A DNA stretch of 64,000 nucleotides from Acetomicrobium thermoterrenum DSM 13490 (GTDB taxonomy: Bacteria > Synergistota > Synergistia > Synergistales > Acetomicrobiaceae). The notes below the pieces were generated by a model. The model saw only the letters and a list, made by a program, of their open reading frames with translations, had not been told where the DNA came from and made no database searches. The position numbers and the translations under genes are program-made. The DNA lies in the NCBI RefSeq assembly GCF_900107215.1, contig NZ_FNPD01000001.1, forward strand, positions 1-64,000, read 5' to 3'. Of this stretch, positions 5,008-23,515 are shown in pieces (the first letter of the stretch is position 1; each line of letters starts with the position of its first letter).

Positions 5008-5036
5008 AATGAAAAATATAGGGAGGCATGAGGAAA

Positions 5037-5279
5037 ATGTGTCTTGCAATTCCTCACAGGATAGAGGAGGTTTTGGATTCAAGCAGGGCTGTCGCCCGCA
5101 CTGGGTCGTTGCGAGTGGAAGTGAGGACGGACCTGGTGGATGAGATCAACGTAGGGGACGTTGTGTTAGTGCACGCTGGTTTTGTCATTGAAAAGTGCGA
5201 AGAAAGGGATGGTCGGGAATTAGAAGAATTATGGAAAGAAGTGTTGAAAGTTGCTAGTCAAGGGCGCGGTGAAAGATAA
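5037..5279 (+). CDS. hypC: [NiFe] hydrogenase maturation chaperone HypC
   Basis: An 80-residue HypC/HupF chaperone. It begins MCLAIP; the cysteine at position 2 becomes N-terminal after Met removal and binds iron during Fe(CN)2CO assembly together with HypD. An in-frame ATG at 5028 would bury this cysteine, and it lies one base from the GGGAGG ribosome site (5021-5026). ATG 5037, 10 bases from that site, is therefore the right start. A central beta-barrel segment (INVGDVVLVHAGFVIEK) fits the family. It overlaps hypD, so the two are translationally coupled. Confidence 0.95.
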   Translation: MCLAIPHRIEEVLDSSRAVARTGSLRVEVRTDLVDEINVGDVVLVHAGFVIEKCEERDGRELEELWKEVLKVASQGRGER

Positions 5280-6336
5280 AATTGAATTACTTCGGCGTGC
5301 GCTAACTTTCTTTGCTGAACGTCCAATGACCTTTATGGAAGTTTGCGGTACTCACACGGTCGCTATTTATAGGAGCGGCATAAGGTCTTTATTGCCGCCC
5401 GACATTTCGCTGGTCTCCGGTCCGGGTTGTCCCGTTTGCGTGACGGATCAGGGAGAGATAGATGCCGCAATAAAACTTGCCGGCAAAGGGGATTTGATCT
5501 TCGCTACCTACGGCGATATGCTGCGCGTTCCTGGCACGAAGGGTTCGCTGCAGAGCCTGAGGGCACATGGCGCCGATGTTCGTGTCGTGAGGTCGGCAGA
5601 CGAAGCCTTGTCGTTAGCCCTTAAAAACCCCGTTAAGGAGGTGGTTTTTTTGGGAGTTGGCTTTGAAACCACCGCTCCTTCCACTGCAGCCGTGGTCGTT
5701 GAAGCGATGGATAGGGGTGTGCAAAATTTTTCCGTCCTTTCGTTTCATAAACTGGTTCCTCCAGCTTTGCGACTACTTGCCGAGTCAGAGGAATTGCAAG
5801 TTGACGGCTTTTTGCTTCCGGGACACGTGAGCGTTGTGCTGGGAGCAGAACCTTATCAATTTTTATCCAGGGATTTCAATATCGCCTGTGCAATAGTTGG
5901 CTTTGAGCCTTTGGATATAATGGAGGGGTTGGTTGAGCTGGCCCGTCAGGTAAGCGAAAGTGACTTCAAGGTCAGCCTCTTGTACGCGAGAGCCGTTAGG
6001 CCCCAAGGGAACGCAAAAGCTCAAGAGTTGATAGAAGAAGTATTCGATAAATGCGATTCAAAGTGGCGTGGTTTGGGGGCTATCGAAAGGTCGGGATTGA
6101 AGTTGAAGAGCGATTTTGCCCGGCTTGATGCTCTTTTGAAGTTCGACTTGAAGATCGAGGATGTCCCTCTCCCCCAAGGTTGCAAGTGTGGCGAAGTATT
6201 GATGGGCAAGATAACTCCAAAAGAATGCCCTCTTTTTTCTAAGCTATGCAGGCCCGATACCCCTGTTGGTCCCTGTATGGTATCGAGCGAGGGAAGCTGC
6301 GCAGCATGTTATAAGTACGATTATAGGGTGATGTAG
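5251..6336 (+). CDS. hypD: [NiFe] hydrogenase maturation protein HypD
   Basis: HypD is the scaffold, with HypC, on which the Fe(CN)2CO group of [NiFe] hydrogenases is built, and it carries a [4Fe-4S] cluster. Family motifs are clear: FMEVCGTHT (about 29-37), SGPGCPVCVT (about 56-65), GFETTAPS (about 137-144), and a C-terminal cluster region with CKCGEVLMG, CPLF and CAACYKY. The longest frame starts at TTG 5251. GTG 5269 behind AAGGG is an equally likely start. Both overlap the end of hypC. HypE begins 2 bases after its stop. Confidence 0.95.
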   Translation: MLVKGAVKDKIELLRRALTFFAERPMTFMEVCGTHTVAIYRSGIRSLLPPDISLVSGPGCPVCVTDQGEIDAAIKLAGKGDLIFATYGDMLRVPGTKGSLQSLRAHGADVRVVRSADEALSLALKNPVKEVVFLGVGFETTAPSTAAVVVEAMDRGVQNFSVLSFHKLVPPALRLLAESEELQVDGFLLPGHVSVVLGAEPYQFLSRDFNIACAIVGFEPLDIMEGLVELARQVSESDFKVSLLYARAVRPQGNAKAQELIEEVFDKCDSKWRGLGAIERSGLKLKSDFARLDALLKFDLKIEDVPLPQGCKCGEVLMGKITPKECPLFSKLCRPDTPVGPCMVSSEGSCAACYKYDYRVM

Positions 6337-6338
6337 CG

Positions 6339-7316
6339 ATGTTCATCGAAATAAAACACGGAAGCGGTGGCAGGCCCACCCAAGAGCTTATCAAGGAGAT
6401 CCTCGAAATATATCGGGATCAAAGCGTTAATGATTTGGAAGATTGTGCTTTAATTGAAAACGGCATAGGCGTAACGATTGACGGTTTTACTGTAAGCCCT
6501 CGGTTTTTCCCGGGAGGAGATATTGGGAAACTCGCTATCTGCGGAAGTACTAACGATTTAGCCGTCAGAGGGGTAAGGCCAAATTATGTTGCAGTAAGTT
6601 TCTTAATAGAAGAGGGATTGCCGAAGGACGAGCTCTTTAGAGCCGTCGATAGCGCCTATCGTGTCAGCAAGGAATTGGATGTCAAGTTCATCGCCGGTGA
6701 TACCAAGGTGCTGCCCAAAGGACAGGCTGACGGCATTTATATAACCTGCTGTGCCCTGGGTCAATCCGTGACGGATCGTCCCTGGGGTGTCAATGAGCTT
6801 TCGCCGGGAGATGTCATCATCGCCACCGGTCCTGTTGGACAACACGGTGCTCTGATAGCCGCGCTCCGCTACGGCCTTGATGTGGATGAATTGGAAAGCG
6901 ACTGCGCGCCTCTATGGCCTTTAATGGAACCCCTGACGAAGATACCGGGCGTAAAGTGCGCAAGAGATTGTACGCGAGGCGGTTTGGGAACGGTCCTGTG
7001 CGAATGGGCCGAGGGTGCCTCCTTGGGCATTGAAATTGATGAAGATCTCATCCCACTGACCCGGCAGGTAATCTCCCTAGCCGACGTCTTGGGCTTTGAC
7101 GTGTTGCACCTCGCCTGCGAAGGTACAGCTGTCATCGCCGTAGATCCCGACTGCCTGCATGAAGTCCTTTCTTCTTTGAAAGAGAAGGCACCCCTCTGCG
7201 CTGTTATAGGCAAGGTCACTGATGAACATCCCGGAATTGTCGGACTTAAGACCAGCATCGGCGGCATGCGCGTCGTCGACATGCCCTTGGGAGAGATGGT
7301 TCCCAGAATATGTTAG
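6339..7316 (+). CDS. hypE: [NiFe] hydrogenase maturation protein HypE
   Basis: A 325-residue AIR-synthase-fold protein that dehydrates a C-terminal thiocarboxamide to thiocyanate, the source of the cyanide ligands of [NiFe] hydrogenase. The C-terminus ends PRIC, the obligate carbamoyl-accepting cysteine. The N-terminal HGSGGRPTQELI is the family start, and GGDIGKLAICGSTNDLAVRG holds ATP-binding residues. It is the last gene of hypCDE. HypF (carbamoyl donor), HypA and HypB are not in this window. Confidence 0.97.
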   Translation: MFIEIKHGSGGRPTQELIKEILEIYRDQSVNDLEDCALIENGIGVTIDGFTVSPRFFPGGDIGKLAICGSTNDLAVRGVRPNYVAVSFLIEEGLPKDELFRAVDSAYRVSKELDVKFIAGDTKVLPKGQADGIYITCCALGQSVTDRPWGVNELSPGDVIIATGPVGQHGALIAALRYGLDVDELESDCAPLWPLMEPLTKIPGVKCARDCTRGGLGTVLCEWAEGASLGIEIDEDLIPLTRQVISLADVLGFDVLHLACEGTAVIAVDPDCLHEVLSSLKEKAPLCAVIGKVTDEHPGIVGLKTSIGGMRVVDMPLGEMVPRIC

Positions 7317-7390: not shown

Positions 7391-7585
7391 CGGATGAGCG
7401 CCGCAAGAGATATCTCGCTTAAAGGAAAGCGAGGAGCCGAAGGTGCAAGGGCAGCGATGCCCCAATCTCTCAGGCAAAAGGATTGCGGTGTGACGGAACC
7501 CTGGAAAAGATTTCTTTAGAGATCTACCAAAAGGGCAAGCCATATGATTGCTTATGGTGAATCCCTGGGGGTGAAGAGGACAGGG
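7391..7585 (+). ncRNA. Tandem glycine riboswitch (gcvT type)
   Basis: Two glycine aptamers lie upstream of the glycine reductase genes. Aptamer 1 has the conserved GCCGAAGGTGCAA and AATCTCTCAGGCAAAAGGA blocks, closed by a P1 stem pairing CCGCAA (7401-7406) with TTGCGG (7483-7488). The 5' leader GGATGAG and the linker GACGGAA match the kink-turn parts of tandem glycine riboswitches. Aptamer 2 (about 7499-7585) is closed by CCCTG/CAGGG and keeps ACCAAAAGGGCAAGCC, but its second conserved block is diverged (AATCCCTGGGGG). In other bacteria glycine binding turns on glycine catabolism genes. No T-tailed terminator is present. Confidence 0.93.
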
Positions 7586-7586
7586 G

Positions 7587-7611
7587 CCAAATGGACCGAG
7601 GGGGGATTTGG
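7587..7611 (+). promoter_or_regulatory. Small hairpin enclosing the grdX ribosome binding site
   Basis: CCAAAT (7587-7592) can pair with ATTTGG (7606-7611), leaving the ribosome site GAGGGGG (7599-7605) in the loop directly after aptamer 2. It could serve as a translational expression platform, but the stem is short and the idea is unproven. Confidence 0.35.
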
Positions 7612-7614
7612 CGC

Positions 7615-8013
7615 ATGTCCTTTTTTTATGAAGTTGTAACAAACAATCCTCGACTGAAGCACATCGCAGGATGCGTATATCTAGAAGGCTGTCCTTTAGA
7701 TGTGTTGGCGATGTTGCGCGATAAGGTCCATGACGGATATAGGCTTATCTCCCATCCTCTGACGGGAAATATCCCTCCGGGAAGAAGGCTTTATTTAACT
7801 GTGCTTCTGGCCAGTTCCACATCTGACGATGATTTCGTCGATCAGGAATCTCTCAATTTAGTCGAAAGAGCTCTCGAAATTTACGAAAGGGCAGATCGTA
7901 ATCATATCGATTTGGATCCAAGTTCGATAGAGGACATGCAGTTCCTCGACGAACAGCTCATAATGCCGGTGTTTTATCAATATGGAATCTTATCAAATCG
8001 GGAGGTGCACTGA
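7615..8013 (+). CDS. grdX: GrdX family protein
   Basis: A 132-residue soluble protein recognised as GrdX, a conserved first gene of glycine/sarcosine/betaine reductase operons whose biochemical role is unknown. It opens MSFFYEVVTNNP and carries the family-like DGYRLISHPLTGNIPPG (about residues 42-58). ATG 7615 is chosen over the in-frame ATG 7591 because GAGGGGG (7599-7605) lies 9 bases upstream of it. It immediately follows the glycine riboswitch and is 2 bases from trxA. Confidence 0.88.
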   Translation: MSFFYEVVTNNPRLKHIAGCVYLEGCPLDVLAMLRDKVHDGYRLISHPLTGNIPPGRRLYLTVLLASSTSDDDFVDQESLNLVERALEIYERADRNHIDLDPSSIEDMQFLDEQLIMPVFYQYGILSNREVH

Positions 8014-8015
8014 AA

Positions 8016-8336
8016 TTGATCGAATTGAACAAGGATAATTTTGAAAGCGAAGTCTTGCAAAGCGATCTTCCCGTCGTGGTGGATCTTTGGGGACCCAAAT
8101 GCGGACCTTGCCTTGCCCTGATGCCTCAGGTAGAGGAGCTTTCCTCTCAATATGAAGGCAAAGTAAAGTTCTGTAAACTAAACGTAGCTGAGAATCGTCG
8201 CTTGGTGATCAGTTTAAAGGTCATGGGGGTTCCTACTTTTCTCTTCTATAAAGGAGGAGAGTTAAAGGACAGGATAAGCGGAGAAGAGGTCACTATAGAA
8301 GCTATTAAGGAGCGAATGGAAAAGTTATTGCAGTAG
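8016..8336 (+). CDS. trxA: Thioredoxin of the glycine reductase operon
   Basis: A 106-residue thioredoxin with redox motif CGPC at 29-32 in the context DLWGPKCGPCLALMP, and the cis-proline MGVPTFLFYKGGE (about 71-83). In glycine reductase systems thioredoxin re-reduces the selenoprotein after turnover. It starts at TTG 8016, 9 bases after GGAGGT and 2 bases after the grdX stop. In many grd operons thioredoxin reductase (trxB) lies beside it; here trxB is absent, so the reductase must be encoded elsewhere. Confidence 0.93.
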   Translation: MIELNKDNFESEVLQSDLPVVVDLWGPKCGPCLALMPQVEELSSQYEGKVKFCKLNVAENRRLVISLKVMGVPTFLFYKGGELKDRISGEEVTIEAIKERMEKLLQ

Positions 8337-8372: not shown

Positions 8373-9665
8373 TTGGTGAGGTTGGAATTGCATAAAGTCA
8401 AGATCGAGGATGTACAATGGGGCGATGCTACCAAGGTCGAAAATAACGTCCTTTACATCAACCGCGAAGAAATTACGGATATGCTGTTAGAGGATGATCG
8501 CTTTGAGTCCGTAAAGGTGGATTTAGCTCGTCCCGGAGAAAGGGTTCGCATTATCCCGGTCAAAGACGTGATAGAGCCCAGGTGCAAGATCGAGGGCGAA
8601 GGCGACGTTTTTCCGGGTTTCATCGGCGATGTCGAGGGTAGCGTAGGGAGGGGCAAGACATTAGTGTTGTCAGGTGCGGCAGTTGTGACCTGTGGCAAGA
8701 TAGTCGGTTTCCAGGAAGGGATTATTGATATGTCGGGCCCCGGTGCCGATTACACGCCCTTCTCCAAGACCAATAACGTGGTCTTGGTCTTTACGCCCAA
8801 GGAAGGTATTGAAAGGCACGATTATGAGGCGGCATGTCGCGTGGCCGGGCTCAAGGTCGCGCACTTTTTGGCGGTGAATGCGAAGGGAACGTCTCACGAC
8901 GAAGTATCGCTTTACGAATTAGGGGAGATAACGAAAAGGCCCAAGGAGCTCGAGAGTTTGCCTAAGGTAGCATATCTTTACATGTTGCAGTCCCAAGGTC
9001 TTCTTCACGATACCTACGTATATGGAGTCGACGCGAAGAGGATACTTCCAACGCTAATTCATCCTAATGAGGTCTTCGATGGGGCTATCGTGTCGGGCAA
9101 CTGCGTATCCGCCTGCGATAAGAATAGCACCTATGTCCATCAAAATAATCCTGTAATAGAAGCCCTCTATAAGAGGCATGGCAGAGACATTGATTTCGTA
9201 GGTTGCATAATTACCAACGAGAACGTGACGCTCGAAGATAAGAAGAGAAGCTCTTCCTATGCGGTCAAGCTTGCCAAGATGCTTGGAGTTGACGGGTTGA
9301 TAATTACGGAAGAAGGTTTCGGAAATCCCGATAGTGACTTGATCATGAACTGCAGAAAGGCGGAGCGTGCGGGTATAAAGACGGTGCTCATTACCGACGA
9401 ATATGCCGGAAGGGACGGAGCCAGCCAATCCCTCGCCGATGCGGCCCCTGAAGCGAACGCCGTCGTAAGCGCCGGAAACGCAAACCCGACGGTCCAATTG
9501 CCCCCTATGGAAAAACTGATAGGTTTTTCCGAATCAGCCAATGTCATAGCGGGAGGTTTTTCTGGAAGCTTAAAGGAAGATGGTTCCATCGAAGTTGAGT
9601 TGCAGGCAATAACGGGTGCTACCAACGAGCTTGGTTTCACCTGTTTTTCTGCCGAAACCAGATAA
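8373..9665 (+). CDS. grdE: Glycine reductase component B, GrdE precursor
   Basis: GrdE is a proprotein of the substrate-specific component B. It cleaves itself at an internal cysteine to make a pyruvoyl group that binds glycine as a Schiff base. The cleavage context SGNCVSACDKNSTY is intact, with the candidate cysteine at residue 244 (Cys242 in the studied clostridial enzyme). The protein is 430 residues, normal for the family. It starts at TTG 8373 or the adjacent GTG 8376 behind AAGGGGGTG. It is followed 26 bases later by grdA. Confidence 0.96.
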   Translation: MVRLELHKVKIEDVQWGDATKVENNVLYINREEITDMLLEDDRFESVKVDLARPGERVRIIPVKDVIEPRCKIEGEGDVFPGFIGDVEGSVGRGKTLVLSGAAVVTCGKIVGFQEGIIDMSGPGADYTPFSKTNNVVLVFTPKEGIERHDYEAACRVAGLKVAHFLAVNAKGTSHDEVSLYELGEITKRPKELESLPKVAYLYMLQSQGLLHDTYVYGVDAKRILPTLIHPNEVFDGAIVSGNCVSACDKNSTYVHQNNPVIEALYKRHGRDIDFVGCIITNENVTLEDKKRSSSYAVKLAKMLGVDGLIITEEGFGNPDSDLIMNCRKAERAGIKTVLITDEYAGRDGASQSLADAAPEANAVVSAGNANPTVQLPPMEKLIGFSESANVIAGGFSGSLKEDGSIEVELQAITGATNELGFTCFSAETR

Positions 9666-9691
9666 ATAATAAAAACAGGAGGTGTTAACCC

Positions 9692-10174
9692 ATGGCAAAG
9701 GGGAAATTGGTCGGTAAAAAGCTGATACTCCTTGGCGAACGGGATGGAATTCCCGGTCCCGTAATGGAGGCCTGTTTAAAGGACAGCGGAGCCGATATAG
9801 TGTTTTCCGTGACCGAATGCTTCGTCTGAACGGCCGCGGGAGCCATGGACCTGCAGAATCAACAGCGCGTCAAGGACGCAGCCGAGAAATTCGGTGCTGA
9901 AAACGTCGTAGTAATACTGGGCAGCTCCGATGCAGAGGGCGCAGAAATTTACGCCGAAACCGTTACAAACGGAGATCCGACTTACGCAGGTCCATTGGCA
10001 GGAGTCCCGTTGGGACTCGCAGTTTATCACATGTTTGAACCGGAGATAAAAGAGGAAGTGGATCCCGCTGTTTGGGAAGAGCAAATGGGAATGATGGAGA
10101 TGGTTTTGGATCCTGAGGCCCTATCTCAAGCGGTAGCTAAAATGCGAGAGCAATGCAGCAAGTATACTCTCTAG
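9692..10174 (+). CDS. grdA: Glycine reductase selenoprotein A, GrdA (UGA = Sec46)
   Basis: GrdA is the small selenoprotein that takes the carboxymethyl group from component B on its selenocysteine and passes it to component C. The 160-residue frame is interrupted by TGA at 9827-9829, within the motif C43-F-V-U46-T-A. This is the CxxU redox motif of known GrdA, so the TGA is read as selenocysteine rather than stop. Translation continues in the same frame to TAG 10172-10174. ATG 9692 follows AGGAGGTG. Plain ORF calling finds only the part after the TGA (from 9845) and misses the N-terminus. Confidence 0.96.
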
Positions 10175-10205
10175 GGTTGCGATGAGAGATAGGGAGGGAT
10201 TATTT

Positions 10206-11513
10206 GTGGCTTATAGGGTAGTGCACTATATAAATCAATTTTTCGCCGGCATAGGCGGCGAGGAAAGGGCGGATTATCCGCCAGAGCTTCGCGATGGCGT
10301 GGTAGGCCCTGGGCAGGCCCTGCAGGCAGCCTTTGGAAAAGAGGCTACTATAGTGGCGACGGTAATTTGCGGTGACGGCTATTTCGCCGAACATATGGAT
10401 GAGGCTATAAACAAAATTATCGAGATGCTCAAGGAATACAAACCCGATGCCCTCGTTGCGGGACCGGCTTTTAACGCGGGACGATACGGCATGGCCTGTG
10501 GCGCCATATGCGATGCCGTCGCTAAAAGGCTGGGCATACCGGTCGTTACTGCCATGTATCGGGAAAATCCCGCTGTCGAGATTTACAAAAAGGGCATTTA
10601 CATAATCGAAGCGGCGGATAGCGCCAGAGGAATGCGCGATGCCATACCTAAAATGGCCCGCCTCGTTTTGAAACAATTGAAGGGGGAAACTATTGGGAGC
10701 CCTAAAGAAGAGTGCTACATAGAGCGTGGCGTCAGAGTAAACGTATTCAGAGATCGAATTGGAGCCGAGAGGGCAGTCGATATGCTCGTGAAAAAGCTTC
10801 GCGGCGAGGAGTTTGTCTCAGAGTATCCCATGCCATCCTTCGATCGTGTGCCACCCGCTCCTGCTATAAAGGACATAAAGAAAGCCAAAATTGCCCTTGT
10901 TACCTCTGGAGGCATAGTTCCCAAGGGCAACCCCGATAGAATAGAAGCTTCAAGCGCCACCAAGTTCGGGGAATATAGCTTAGCGGGCTTACAGGACCTC
11001 ACATCGGAAACGCACGAGACGGCTCACGGAGGTTATGATCCTACCTATGCAAACGATGACCCCGATAGGGTATTGCCAGTGGATGTGGCAAGAGAACTGG
11101 AAAGGGAGGGCTCCTTTGGCTCGCTTCACGATAAATATTACGCGACCGTGGGCAACGGAACTCCCGTAGCCTATGCCAAGAGCTTTGGAGAGGAGATTGC
11201 CAAGAGGTTGAAGAACGATAATGTAGATGGCGTCATCCTTACGTCCACCTGAGGAACCTGTACTCGTTGCGGTGCAACGATGGTAAAGGAATTGGAGAGA
11301 GCGGGTTTACCCACCGTGCATATATGTACTATAGTTCCCATATCACAGACCGTCGGAGCGAACAGAATAGTTCCGGCCGTCGCAATTCCTCACCCCCTTG
11401 GCGATCCGACAAAGTCGTCGGAAGAAGAAAGGGCAATAAGACGCCGCCTTTTAAACAAAGCATTAAAGGCCTTACAGGCAGATATCAAGGAACAGACCGT
11501 TTTTGACGATTAA
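10206..11513 (+). CDS. grdB: Glycine reductase component B selenoprotein, GrdB (UGA = Sec349)
   Basis: GrdB is the selenocysteine subunit of the glycine-specific component B, which attacks the Schiff-base-activated glycine. GTG 10206 (AYRVVHYINQFFAGIGGEE) fits the family N-terminus and sits behind AGGGAGGG. The upstream ATG 10182 lacks a site. The frame meets TGA at 11250-11252 in the context TST-U-GTCTRCGATM, and the downstream frame (VKELERAGLPTVHICTIVPISQTVGANRIVPAVAIPHPLG) is classic GrdB C-terminus. The full product is 435 residues. Without Sec decoding it would be called as two truncated genes. Confidence 0.96.
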
Positions 11514-11522
11514 CTTCTCTCC

Positions 11523-11563
11523 GATCAAGGGGCCAAAGGGACCTTTCTTTTGACCCCTTGATC
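11523..11563 (+). repeat. Intercistronic hairpin between grdB and grdC
   Basis: A perfect 10-base inverted repeat, GATCAAGGGG (11523-11532) with CCCCTTGATC (11554-11563), has a partly paired 21-base loop region. There is no T-run afterwards, so it looks like an mRNA-stabilising or processing hairpin rather than a terminator. It fills the gap between the A/B and C component genes. Confidence 0.7.
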
Positions 11564-11570
11564 AATTAAA

Positions 11571-13157
11571 TTGGCGGTAATTTCGGACATAAGGAGCGTG
11601 CATGATTACATGCGAAAGGTTGCTATAAAAGAATATGCCTATTGCTTGAACCACACCCCCGAACTTGCCTATCACTATGGCAATACCCCCTTTTGGGAAA
11701 GGAAGGCCAAAGGAGAATCGGAGTTTCTGCTTTCCCTGTCAAAATCGATGCGTCCCTTTGAAGAGGCAGTAAGTTACGCCGCAAACCAAGCCTTCATCGG
11801 AGGGATTGATCCGGAGGACCTGGAGGCTCAGCCTGTTCCGTGGTACCAAAATCCGATGAGGGGAGCCTCTCGTTGGGGCCAATTTGGAGAGATAATGCCC
11901 GAAGATGAATTTTTGGCCCTTATGGATATTTCCGACGTCTTCGACATCATCTGGCTTGAGGAAACCTTTTCGGGAAAGGTCAAGGACAAGCTCCAAAGCC
12001 ACTCCTTGATAAACCCCGACATTTTACAGCGTCTGGAAAAGGGTCATCCCATTGATGAAATAGAGAGGGAAATAAGAGAGAATGAGGCGTTACCGTTATA
12101 TTACGACGGTATAACAGTTGGATGCTGTAGAAAAGCCCATGAATTTGACGAATGTCTGTCCTCCTATGTACTGCTCGAGAACATAGCCTGCAAAGCCGGC
12201 GGAGTATTGGCTTTGCTCCATCTACTGAAACGTGCGGGCATGAAACCTGAAGAAGTCGATTTCATCATAGAGTGTTCCGAAGAAGCTGCGGGAGACATGA
12301 ACCAAAGGGGAGGGGGCAATTTCGCCAAATCAGTAGGTGAAATTGCCGGCTGTATAAATGCAAGCGGGTGTGACGTAAGGGGCTTTTGCGCCGGACCTGC
12401 CTACGCTCTTATCAACGCAGCGGGACAGGTGGCATCCGGTATCAGGAAAAACGTAGTGGTGTTAGCCGGAGGAGCCGTTCCGAAGCTTTACATGAACGCA
12501 CGGGATCACGTGAAAAAAAATATCCCGGCACTGGAGGATGTCTTGGGTAATTTTGCAGTATTGCTCACTCCCGAAGACGGGGTCTCTCCCGTAATAAGGC
12601 TCGATGCAATCGGAAAACATTCCGTGGGGGCCGGGGCCTCTCCCCAAGCCATAACCGAGGCTCTTGTTTACGAGCCGTTAAAGCGGATCGGGCTTGGCAT
12701 TGCCGATGTGGATAAATATGCGGCAGAGCTGCAAAACCCCGAGATAACGCTGCCGGCAGGAGCGGGAAATGTCCCCGAGGCCAACTTCAAGATGATCGCA
12801 GCCCTTGCCGTAATGAAGAAGGAGCTCGAAAGAGCCGATATGGCTGATTTTATAAAGGAACGCGGAATGCCCGGCTTCGCACCAACGCAAGGACATGTAC
12901 CCTCCGGCGTGCCGTTTATAGGGCATGCCTGCGAGAAGATAAAGAAGGGAACGATGAAGAGGTCGATGATAATAGGAAAGGGAAGCCTCTTTTTGGCACG
13001 TTTGACGAACCTATCCGATGGAGCTTCCTTTATCATAGAATCGCCTTCGCCTCTTGCCGGTGAGGAAAAGACCGTAAGCAAAGAAGCGATAAAGGAAATC
13101 ATTTTGGAAGTGCTTGCCGATCTCGCCGGTTCGCTTAAAGGTACTGCCAAAGAGTAA
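11571..13157 (+). CDS. grdC: Glycine reductase component C, beta subunit GrdC
   Basis: GrdC is one subunit of component C, which converts the selenoprotein-bound carboxymethyl group to acetyl phosphate. It has the ketoacyl-synthase (FabH/thiolase) fold of acyl-transfer enzymes. The 528-residue protein carries the family block YANQAFIGGIDPEDLEAQPVPWYQNPM-like region (about 70-95) and the cysteine-rich centre GCINASGCDVRGFCAGPAYALINAAGQVASG (about 262-292). It starts at TTG 11571, right after the hairpin; no strong ribosome site is seen. The region upstream of KEYAYCLNHTPELAY is poorly conserved, so a later start is possible. Confidence 0.92.
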   Translation: MAVISDIRSVHDYMRKVAIKEYAYCLNHTPELAYHYGNTPFWERKAKGESEFLLSLSKSMRPFEEAVSYAANQAFIGGIDPEDLEAQPVPWYQNPMRGASRWGQFGEIMPEDEFLALMDISDVFDIIWLEETFSGKVKDKLQSHSLINPDILQRLEKGHPIDEIEREIRENEALPLYYDGITVGCCRKAHEFDECLSSYVLLENIACKAGGVLALLHLLKRAGMKPEEVDFIIECSEEAAGDMNQRGGGNFAKSVGEIAGCINASGCDVRGFCAGPAYALINAAGQVASGIRKNVVVLAGGAVPKLYMNARDHVKKNIPALEDVLGNFAVLLTPEDGVSPVIRLDAIGKHSVGAGASPQAITEALVYEPLKRIGLGIADVDKYAAELQNPEITLPAGAGNVPEANFKMIAALAVMKKELERADMADFIKERGMPGFAPTQGHVPSGVPFIGHACEKIKKGTMKRSMIIGKGSLFLARLTNLSDGASFIIESPSPLAGEEKTVSKEAIKEIILEVLADLAGSLKGTAKE

Positions 13158-13177: not shown

Positions 13178-14335
13178 GTGAGTGATGTCAATTTGAAAAA
13201 GTTAATCGGCGAAGCGTTGATTGAAATTGTAGATGCGGCCAAAGGCGGAAGCAAGCTCATGCCTATCGGTTTGATGAGCAGCGGAAGCGAGCTTGGTTCA
13301 GAAGAGATGGCTTTGGGAGGTAGGCTTGCCCAGCAACAATACCCTTTTATAAAAGTGGTTATGATAGGCCCTCGTGTCAAAGGTTTCGACGATCTCGAAT
13401 GGATTGAGACCGACGATTGCGAGGCCGACATCCAAAATGCAATGGAAAAAGCTTTGAAAGAAGGTAGCATAAAAGGTGCCGTTGCCCTCCATTATCCCTT
13501 CCCTTTGGGCGTCGCTACCGTTGGAATGATACACGCGCCTGCCAAGGGGAAGCCCCTCATAATATCCACTTCTACGGGGACTTCTTCCGCTAATAGAGTC
13601 GAAGCCATGGTGTTGAATGCGATTTATGGCATAGCAGTTGCCAAAGCCAGGGGAATCAAGAAGCCGGAAGTTGGCATTTTAAACGTGGATGGGGCGCAAA
13701 TGGTTTACAGATCTCTCAGAAAATTGGCGGAGGGCGGTTACGATATTACCTTTGGAAGCAGTGTAAGGAGTGACGGAGGCCCTATTTTAAGAGGGAACGA
13801 TTTGATAGCCGGTTCCGTGGATGTATGCGTTACCGATACATTGACGGGGAATGTCGTGGTCAAGATATTTAGCGCCTACAACACAGGCGGGAATTACGAA
13901 GCTTTAGGTTGGGGGTACGGGCCGTCCGTGGGAGAGGGGTGGGGCTATGTCGTCTCCATCATTTCCAGGGCTTCCGGGGCCCACGTTATCGCAAATGCCA
14001 TCTACTTTACGGCTGAAGTGTCCTTAGCCGGCCTGCCGTCGCTTGTGAGGAGCGAACTTGAGAGGGCCAGAAATGCAGGCCTTGAAAGCATTCTCGCCCA
14101 ACTGGAAAGCAAGGGGGAGGGCGGGAAATCGCAGGTGGAGCCGCCCAAACCGGAGCCGACAGACGAAGAAATCCATGGTATAGATGTTTTGACGATAGAA
14201 GACGCGGTAAAAACTCTTTGGGCGTCAGGAATATATGCCGAATCGGCCATGGGATGCACTGGCCCAGTCGTAAAAGTTCCTTCACGCTTTCTCGACAAGG
14301 CTAAGGAAGTTTTGGCCGAGGGCGGCTACCTGTAA
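13178..14335 (+). CDS. grdD: Glycine reductase component C, alpha subunit GrdD
   Basis: GrdD holds the thiol that forms the acetyl-thioester released as acetyl phosphate, the ATP-yielding step of Stickland glycine reduction. It is 385 residues, of the PlsX-like phosphate acyltransferase fold. The C-terminal motif ESAMGCTGPVV places the catalytic cysteine at residue 360, matching Cys359 reported as active in Eubacterium acidaminophilum. It starts at GTG 13178 behind AAGAGGTG; an ATG at 13173 is out of frame. It is the last gene of the operon, followed by a strong terminator. Confidence 0.96.
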   Translation: MSDVNLKKLIGEALIEIVDAAKGGSKLMPIGLMSSGSELGSEEMALGGRLAQQQYPFIKVVMIGPRVKGFDDLEWIETDDCEADIQNAMEKALKEGSIKGAVALHYPFPLGVATVGMIHAPAKGKPLIISTSTGTSSANRVEAMVLNAIYGIAVAKARGIKKPEVGILNVDGAQMVYRSLRKLAEGGYDITFGSSVRSDGGPILRGNDLIAGSVDVCVTDTLTGNVVVKIFSAYNTGGNYEALGWGYGPSVGEGWGYVVSIISRASGAHVIANAIYFTAEVSLAGLPSLVRSELERARNAGLESILAQLESKGEGGKSQVEPPKPEPTDEEIHGIDVLTIEDAVKTLWASGIYAESAMGCTGPVVKVPSRFLDKAKEVLAEGGYL

Positions 14336-23242: not shown

Positions 23243-23515
23243 AATAACAATATCGAAGATCTTTGCGATGAAGGGGAAGAGTAGTCCGTTTCGACGAACT
23301 CCAGAGAGGAAGTTCAAGGGTGAAAGACTTCCGTTCGTGGGCGGGCGAAGACCACCCCCGAGCTGCCATCGAAGCCGATGCTCGTCGGATAAGGTGGCGG
23401 GGTCCGCCCCTTAAAGCGGAGAGAGATCCGAAAGGCGTCTTTCGGAAATTGGAGTGGAACCGCGAGAGCCCTCCTCTCGCCTCCAAGCGGAGGCTTGAGG
23501 GGGGTTTAATAATTT
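23243..23515 (+). ncRNA. T-box leader, threonine specific (specifier ACC)
   Basis: A tRNA-sensing T-box riboswitch. Stem I is closed by CGATG (23266-23270) with CATCG (23367-23371). A second helix, GGGG (23273-23276) with CCCC (23355-23358), borders a specifier loop with AAGAGTAG on the 5' side and GAAG-ACC-A on the 3' side. The triplet ACC (23351-23353) reads threonine. The conserved CCAGAGAGG and GGTGAAAG elements follow. The T-box bulge TGGAACCGCG (23454-23463) pairs with the tRNA acceptor end. A terminator follows. Uncharged tRNA-Thr should prevent termination and switch on thrC-thrB-lysC-asd. Confidence 0.93.
23469..23515 (+). terminator. Attenuator terminator of the threonine T-box
   Basis: GCCTCC and GGAGGC form the core stem around a 4-base loop, extended outwards by CCCTCC and GGGGGG, and followed by TTTAATAATTTT. 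Its 5' side follows the T-box sequence, as expected for a terminator/antiterminator pair. Confidence 0.85.

Follow-up and report, generated by a model that had tools for sequence, protein, structure and literature searches.

The first 64,000 nucleotides of contig NZ_FNPD01000001.1 of Acetomicrobium thermoterrenum DSM 13490 (GCF_900107215.1, positions 1-64,000, forward strand; hereafter the window) carry the adjacent genes grdA and grdB, each with an in-frame UGA codon. How are these codons read, and what in each message marks them? A sequence-only reading had claimed that both encode selenocysteine (Sec), in a CxxU motif of GrdA and a UxxC motif of GrdB, and that the genome must carry the decoding machinery outside the window. 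Sec in the GrdA and GrdB families is established. The grdA-grdB pair is described as a selenoprotein operon (PMC13188914), and the title of a 1995 paper by Kreimer and Andreesen, cited in that source, names a grdAB operon of Clostridium litorale with two in-frame TGA codons. Synergistetes are named as a selenoprotein-rich phylum (PMC5029168).

Two UGA codons in a glycine reductase operon

The two genes belong to a glycine reductase operon, and the riboswitch upstream of it fits glycine as the predicted substrate (Table 1). GrdA scores above the cut-off of its family model and contains CxxU. GrdB scores above the TIGR01917 cut-off and contains UxxC, and the sarcosine and betaine exception models stay under their own cut-offs: the sarcosine model GrdF gave 696.7 bits, above the glycine-model score and under its cut-off of 800, and the GrdH model gave 564.2 bits against a cut-off of 775. 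A search of solved structures gave no match for GrdA or GrdB. The likely start of grdB is GTG 10206, after AGGGAGGG, from which its Sec codon is counted. Both full frames thus bear out the claimed motifs. Standard open reading frame calling had been said to lose the last 87 residues of GrdB and the first 45 of GrdA; the former figure holds (Sec plus 86 residues), whereas for GrdA calling restarts at ATG 9845 and 51 residues are therefore lost.

Table 1. Features of the operon and its surroundings, in window positions
Feature	Position	Strand	Basis or remark
hypD and hypE, hydrogenase maturation	5028-7316		Directly upstream of the glycine reductase operon; profile matches
Glycine riboswitch aptamer	7394-7495	+	Upstream of the operon and of grdX; RF00504, 63 bits (gathering 32)
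grdX	7591-8013	+	NF038093, 87.3 bits (cut-off 40)
Thioredoxin	8016-8336	+	NF047697, 133.2 bits, just under cut-off 140
grdE/grdG-type proprotein of component B	8373-9665	+	NF040793, 618.9 bits, under cut-off 780
grdA, selenoprotein A of glycine reductase	9692-10174	+	NF040748, 263.5 bits (cut-off 130); Sec is codon 46
UGA of grdA, read as Sec	9827-9829	+	CxxU (ECFVU); codon 46 of an otherwise open frame
P1, 5' strand, GGACCUGC	9847-9854	+	First base 17 nt after UGA; one-sided support, synonymous null
P1, 3' strand, GCAGGUCC	9986-9993	+	Can pair with 9847-9854
P2, remote hairpin GAGUCCC-GUU-GGGACUC, proposed grdA SECIS	10002-10018	+	Perfect 7 bp; loop 10009-10011
grdB, selenoprotein B of glycine reductase	10206-11513	+	TIGR01917, 673.3 bits (cut-off 602.2); Sec is codon 349
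UGA of grdB, read as Sec	11250-11252	+	UxxC (UGTC; ILTST-U-GTCTRCG)
Canonical SECIS of grdB, CGUUGC-GGU-GCAACG	11253-11290	+	Loop 18 nt after UGA; RF01990 SECIS_4, 62.6 bits (gathering 38)
grdC, component C subunit beta	11571-13157	+	NF040746, 763.7 bits (cut-off 450)
grdD, component C subunit alpha	13178-14335	+	NF040747, 537.3 bits (cut-off 350)

The surroundings offer several further observations. A small hypC-like frame apparently precedes hypD and hypE in the open reading frame list, and a T-box leader lies at 23259-23487 of the window (109.1 bits). Contig 5 of the same genome (L082:7554-10224) holds a second component B pair, a GrdB-type selenoprotein with a GrdE-type proprotein; no substrate-specific NCBIfam cut-off was passed there, and a CdaR-like regulator adjoins. 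On contig 3 (L083:7280-12271), a second grdA lies with GrdI/GrdH-type genes and a betaine BCCT transporter, probably a betaine reductase cluster, and a glmS ribozyme follows.

To ask how widely the codons are kept, we searched Synergistota, the search covering 185 genomes. GrdB and GrdA were each matched in 133, and among the matches listed, every GrdB match and every site-spanning GrdA match has the in-frame TGA. Since the codons are kept in all listed site-spanning relatives, they are not due to chance. Among aligned grdA genes, 84/84 have TGA at the Sec site. We sought Cys-type grdA genes, which are reported in PMC12013277, as a control and found none; the listed matches that lack TGA are fragments missing the site. 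A plain stop, a sequencing error and a pseudogene were each rejected on the strength of the same TGA across the listed relatives.

The genome is predicted to decode Sec, as it contains selA, selB, selD and tRNA-Sec. Neighboring selA (575.4 bits, cut-off 267.9) and selB (373.9 bits, cut-off 242.25) are on contig 3, selD (331.8 bits, cut-off 125) is on contig 1, and tRNA-Sec is on contig 9 (75.4 bits, gathering 47; called SeC with anticodon tca by ARAGORN). All matches over cut-off lie outside the window, and no tRNA-Sec was found within its 64,000 nt, in line with what had been claimed on both points. The selD gene (contig 1:200496-201428) itself has an in-frame TGA, and its product is therefore probably a selenoprotein. 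The evidence supports reading both grd UGAs as Sec.

The codon before the Sec UGA (9824-9826 and 11247-11249) is nearly fixed to one ending in C, a context effect: it is GTC in 30/30 Synergistota grdA genes and ACC in 28/29 grdB genes.

The regions directly after the two UGA codons

In the model reviewed in PMC13188914, a bacterial SECIS lies 16-37 nt from the UGA, and one of the first two loop positions is a G, in many cases with G or U next to it. We applied bacterial SECIS (bSECIS) criteria of a 4-16 bp stem, a small loop whose first two positions include G, and a distance of 16-37 nt. The sequence-only reading had proposed examining 40 bases past each TGA for a SECIS; this succeeded for grdB, with a SECIS_4 match, and failed for grdA, where neither an Rfam match nor a model hairpin was present.

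The grdB hairpin has 7 bp, and its GGU loop lies at 18 nt. Across 30 relatives, of which 29 are distinct, synonymous variation around the UGA and hairpin is the lowest of the 348 13-codon windows of the gene, and the hairpin codons CGT, TGC, GCA and ACG are fixed in 29/29. A model stem of at least 5 bp forms in 99/99 distinct genes, compared to 38.3 under the synonymous null. The genome contains two more grdB-type genes with hairpins at 17-18 nt, one of which has a compensated stem. SECIS elements are also reported as predicted in all eight grdB genes of Cloacibacillus porcorum MFA1 (PMC10838667). The grdB element is a textbook SECIS.

For grdA, Rfam gave no SECIS even at E values up to 10 over 9600-11600. 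A 50-nt segment starting at the UGA folds less stably than its shuffled versions (z +1.34), with no stable proximal hairpin, and the best uninterrupted proximal model stem in the window is 2-3 bp. Across 83 distinct genes, a proximal model stem of at least 5 bp occurs in 36, compared to 28.6 expected. RNAalifold gave nothing convincing on the 63 nt from the UGA, and synonymous variation in the proximal region is not depressed (ranks 27-44 of 88 windows). Tests by Rfam search, folding, the synonymous null and synonymous-site variation thus gave no canonical SECIS for grdA. Many Synergistota grdA genes have a 4-bp hairpin, CUGC-AGAAUCA-GCAG, at the right distance from the UGA.

A remote hairpin and a long-range helix in grdA

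Synonymous variation across 84 grdA genes reaches its minimum between codons +52 and +64, counted from the UGA, exactly at the hairpin that we call P2, which the sequence-only reading had not noticed. Its 7-bp stem and GUU loop agree with the bSECIS rules for stem size and loop, but the loop starts 179 nt after the UGA, far beyond the 16-37 nt of the distance rule. Compared to a synonymous null built from each gene's own codon usage, complete pairing (7/7) is enriched, occurring in 63/71 distinct Synergistota segments (1.33 expected), 31/81 Bacillota segments (0.55 expected) and 2/16 Spirochaetota segments (0.00 expected). Of 153 genes retrieved once P2 had been recognized, 66 have all seven pairs (1.10 expected) and 111 at least six (9.51 expected). 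When all 6-bp helices between -117 and +297 were scanned, P2 ranked first in both Synergistota and Bacillota. Genome-wide, only two near-copies with at most two mismatches were found, both in grdA genes, and the second grdA of the genome carries the variant GAGCCCC-GUU-GGGGCUC, a compensated stem.

Compensatory change was seen more broadly. Pairing is 0.962 in the 131 segments with P2 and did not exceed 0.935 when their 3' halves were exchanged (500 shuffles), while the 20 cells with two-sided changes compare with a shuffle mean of 4.4 and maximum of 10; a control slid by +1 also gave 20 two-sided cells, but with pairing of just 0.49. Amino acid replacements tell the same story at single pairs. 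Where Glu or Lys replaces Gly at codon 62, a C-G pair is broken, and the partner base is U in 10/10 P2-bearing genes; Val to Ala at codon 59 gives C at pair 4, with G opposite in 7/7 P2-bearing genes; and in nine genes where codon 61 encodes Ser or Ala instead of Leu, the loop-adjacent pair is A-U. In these counts pairs 4 and 5 are favored, because P2-bearing genes were selected by pairing at five central positions. The shuffles and synonymous expectations do not depend on this selection in the same way. The loop in the 196 P2-bearing genes is GUU in 187, GUC in six and GGC in three, in agreement with the G[G/U] rule given in PMC13188914. P2 is under selection as RNA.

The second element, P1, is a helix between the region just past the UGA and a strand shortly before P2. 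In the window it extends to 9845-9854 with 9986-9995. We counted P1 as present where an uninterrupted helix in register exceeded a set threshold. By this definition P2-bearing genes have P1 in 56/75 Synergistota, 85/115 Bacillota and 5/6 Spirochaetota, against 4.6, 5.7 and 0.4 expected from synonymous codons. Among genes without P2, it occurs in 2/35 Bacillota and 0/14 Spirochaetota (1.3 and 0.0 expected). It is below threshold in 50 of the 196 P2-bearing genes. Since two-sided covariation was not found for P1, support for the helix comes from codon choice and co-occurrence with P2. In the 6-bp helix scan, P1 ranked second in Bacillota and third in Synergistota. Other long-range helices also score, at registers 444, 280 and 460 for Synergistota and at 195, 330 and 182 for Bacillota; these are confined to one group each, and several draw on bases of P2 itself. 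Registers 459 and 259 score in both groups with a smaller excess.

To see how P2 relates to proximal hairpins, we collected 248 distinct grdA genes and scored 247, assigned from search and record titles to Synergistota (77), Bacillota and other (150) and Spirochaetota (20). P2 is present in 196: 75, 115 and six, respectively. A strong proximal hairpin, defined as at least 6 bp with at least 3 G-C, occurs in 1/196 genes with P2 and in 24/51 without it; in these sequences the two are almost mutually exclusive. Most of the 24 are UGGAUC-UGGA-GAUCCA, found in part of the Bacillota with its loop 22 nt after the UGA, and the compensated form UGGACC-UGGA-GGUCCA also occurs; a second proximal type lies at 17 nt. 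Of the 51 P2-less genes, 27 also lack a strong proximal hairpin; P2 is therefore not present in all grdA genes, and a recognized signal is absent from some. These 27 comprise 14 from the Spirochaetota set, most with a 5-bp A+U-rich proximal hairpin, 11 from Bacillota with a weak candidate or none, and two from Synergistota in which P2 is weakened. C directly precedes the UGA in 176/196 genes with P2 and 31/51 without.

A GrdA tree built after masking of the trait codons shows 14 changes of P2 and six of the proximal type. The tree contains only four well-supported independent pairs, for which the direction is as predicted and not significant (p 0.25 and 0.5).

Spirochaetota grdA genes (for example, L278-L291) are mostly P2-less and have the A+U-rich hairpin GAUUU-AGA-GAAUC after the UGA; the six of 20 with P2 include L273-L277. 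Five Bacillota genes with neither signal (L210, L214, L216, L219 and L228) have the codons ACAGCTGCTGGGGCTATGGAC after the UGA in common, perhaps a third kind of signal.

A proposed split SECIS and its relation to known systems

Among the sequences compared, P2 and P1 are conserved, co-occurring RNA elements, P2 with compensatory changes. An RNA element in grdA is strongly supported, and we infer that it serves as the SECIS. We consider it quite probable that grdA uses a remote, split SECIS made of P2 and P1, that grdB uses an ordinary one, and that both UGAs are decoded as Sec. SelB and tRNA-Sec would decode both codons, and the grdB signal would be the ordinary hairpin 18 nt past the UGA. 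In grdA, SelB with Sec-tRNA would bind P2. P1 starts 17 nt past the UGA, approximately at the edge of a ribosome whose A site holds the UGA; it would loop out the 131 nt between its own strands and set P2 eight bases from the helix, beside the UGA. With the ribosome at the UGA, SelB would then be roughly as close on P2 as it is when bound to a canonical SECIS. Points against this reading are the genes with neither signal, the P2-bearing genes in which P1 is below threshold, the lack of two-sided covariation in P1, the tree pairs short of significance, the 16-37 nt spacing of textbook elements and the grdA SECIS elements reported for other bacteria; moreover, conservation of an RNA structure does not by itself prove binding by SelB. 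Extending this to the other genes, it is fairly probable that a remote split SECIS recodes most Synergistota grdA genes, a large share of the Bacillota ones and some from Spirochaetota, with some Bacillota lineages using a canonical proximal SECIS instead.

Two other arrangements of the signal would also give Sec. One is that both regions are needed, a proximal part being read by the ribosome or SelB and P2/P1 acting as an enhancer. The invariant C before the UGA in the 30 Synergistota genes would suit such a composite, as would the start of P1 at 13-17 nt after the UGA, by which the composite includes proximal sequence; however, in genes with P2 the 6-bp helix scan gave no further conserved hairpin close to the UGA, and we regard this arrangement as unlikely.

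The other, which we consider quite improbable, is a weak proximal SECIS (for example, at 9850-9870) missed by the models, with P2/P1 serving another purpose, for instance a translational pause that assists GrdA folding, or mRNA stability. The reviewed model is described as missing some SECIS elements (PMC13188914), the 4-bp CUGC-AGAAUCA-GCAG hairpin is well placed in many Synergistota genes, and grdA SECIS elements within +100 are reported for other bacteria. One such study searched from -10 to +100 nt and placed a putative SECIS of Photobacterium profundum grdA inside that range (PMC1242214); because the range stopped at +100 nt, the method could not detect P2. For a single marine grdA a strong SECIS is described (PMC2398784), and it may belong to the proximal type. 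Against a weak proximal element are the 2-3 bp stem in the window, the undepressed synonymous variation, the SECIS-type loop of P2 and the near absence of P2 where a strong proximal hairpin exists. P2 is also retained in Synergistota grdA genes on a contig other than that of grdB, which argues against a role for the neighboring gene. Finally, it is hardly conceivable that the UGAs act as true stops or arose by sequencing error, as only default open reading frame calling favors it, against the TGAs of the listed relatives, the complete Sec machinery and the SECIS_4 in grdB.

Sec in grdA and grdB and the machinery for it are ordinary; a remote grdA signal would be unusual for bacteria. In the literature searched, we found no account of bacterial grdA genes with a remote SECIS, and something related may be known. 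Gursinsky and colleagues are said to have tested E. acidaminophilum genes in E. coli for Sec insertion in 2008. If the split SECIS proposed here is correct, the rule that a bacterial SECIS directly follows the UGA is wrong for GrdA. P2-like elements would be missed by searches confined to the range near the UGA, such as the 16-37 nt described in PMC13188914 or the -10 to +100 nt of PMC1242214, and similar remote elements may exist in other selenoprotein genes that seem to lack a SECIS. The proposal raises testable questions, namely how far SelB action can reach and whether mRNA folding can deliver SelB. A remote bacterial SECIS would also narrow the gap between bacterial and archaeal or eukaryotic Sec insertion.

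Judged by the title of the 1995 paper, the grdAB operon of C. litorale, from a phylum other than that of Acetomicrobium, has the same two genes and the same two in-frame TGAs, with no difference in the UGAs. Compared to the bSECIS model and SECIS_4 (RF01990), grdB matches fully. P2 resembles the model in stem size, in its 3-nt loop and in a first loop G followed by U or G, and differs in its distance from the UGA and in the long-range helix to the UGA region. Archaeal and eukaryotic SECIS elements act at a distance from the UGA, as P2 would if our proposal is right, but they are described as lying in untranslated regions and having other structures (PMC13188914, PMC1242214), whereas P2 is inside coding sequence. 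A further comparison is the proximal UGGAUC-UGGA-GAUCCA hairpin of part of the Bacillota, which is in the same gene as P2 and presumably has the same task; it occupies the canonical place, and the genes that carry it are without P2.
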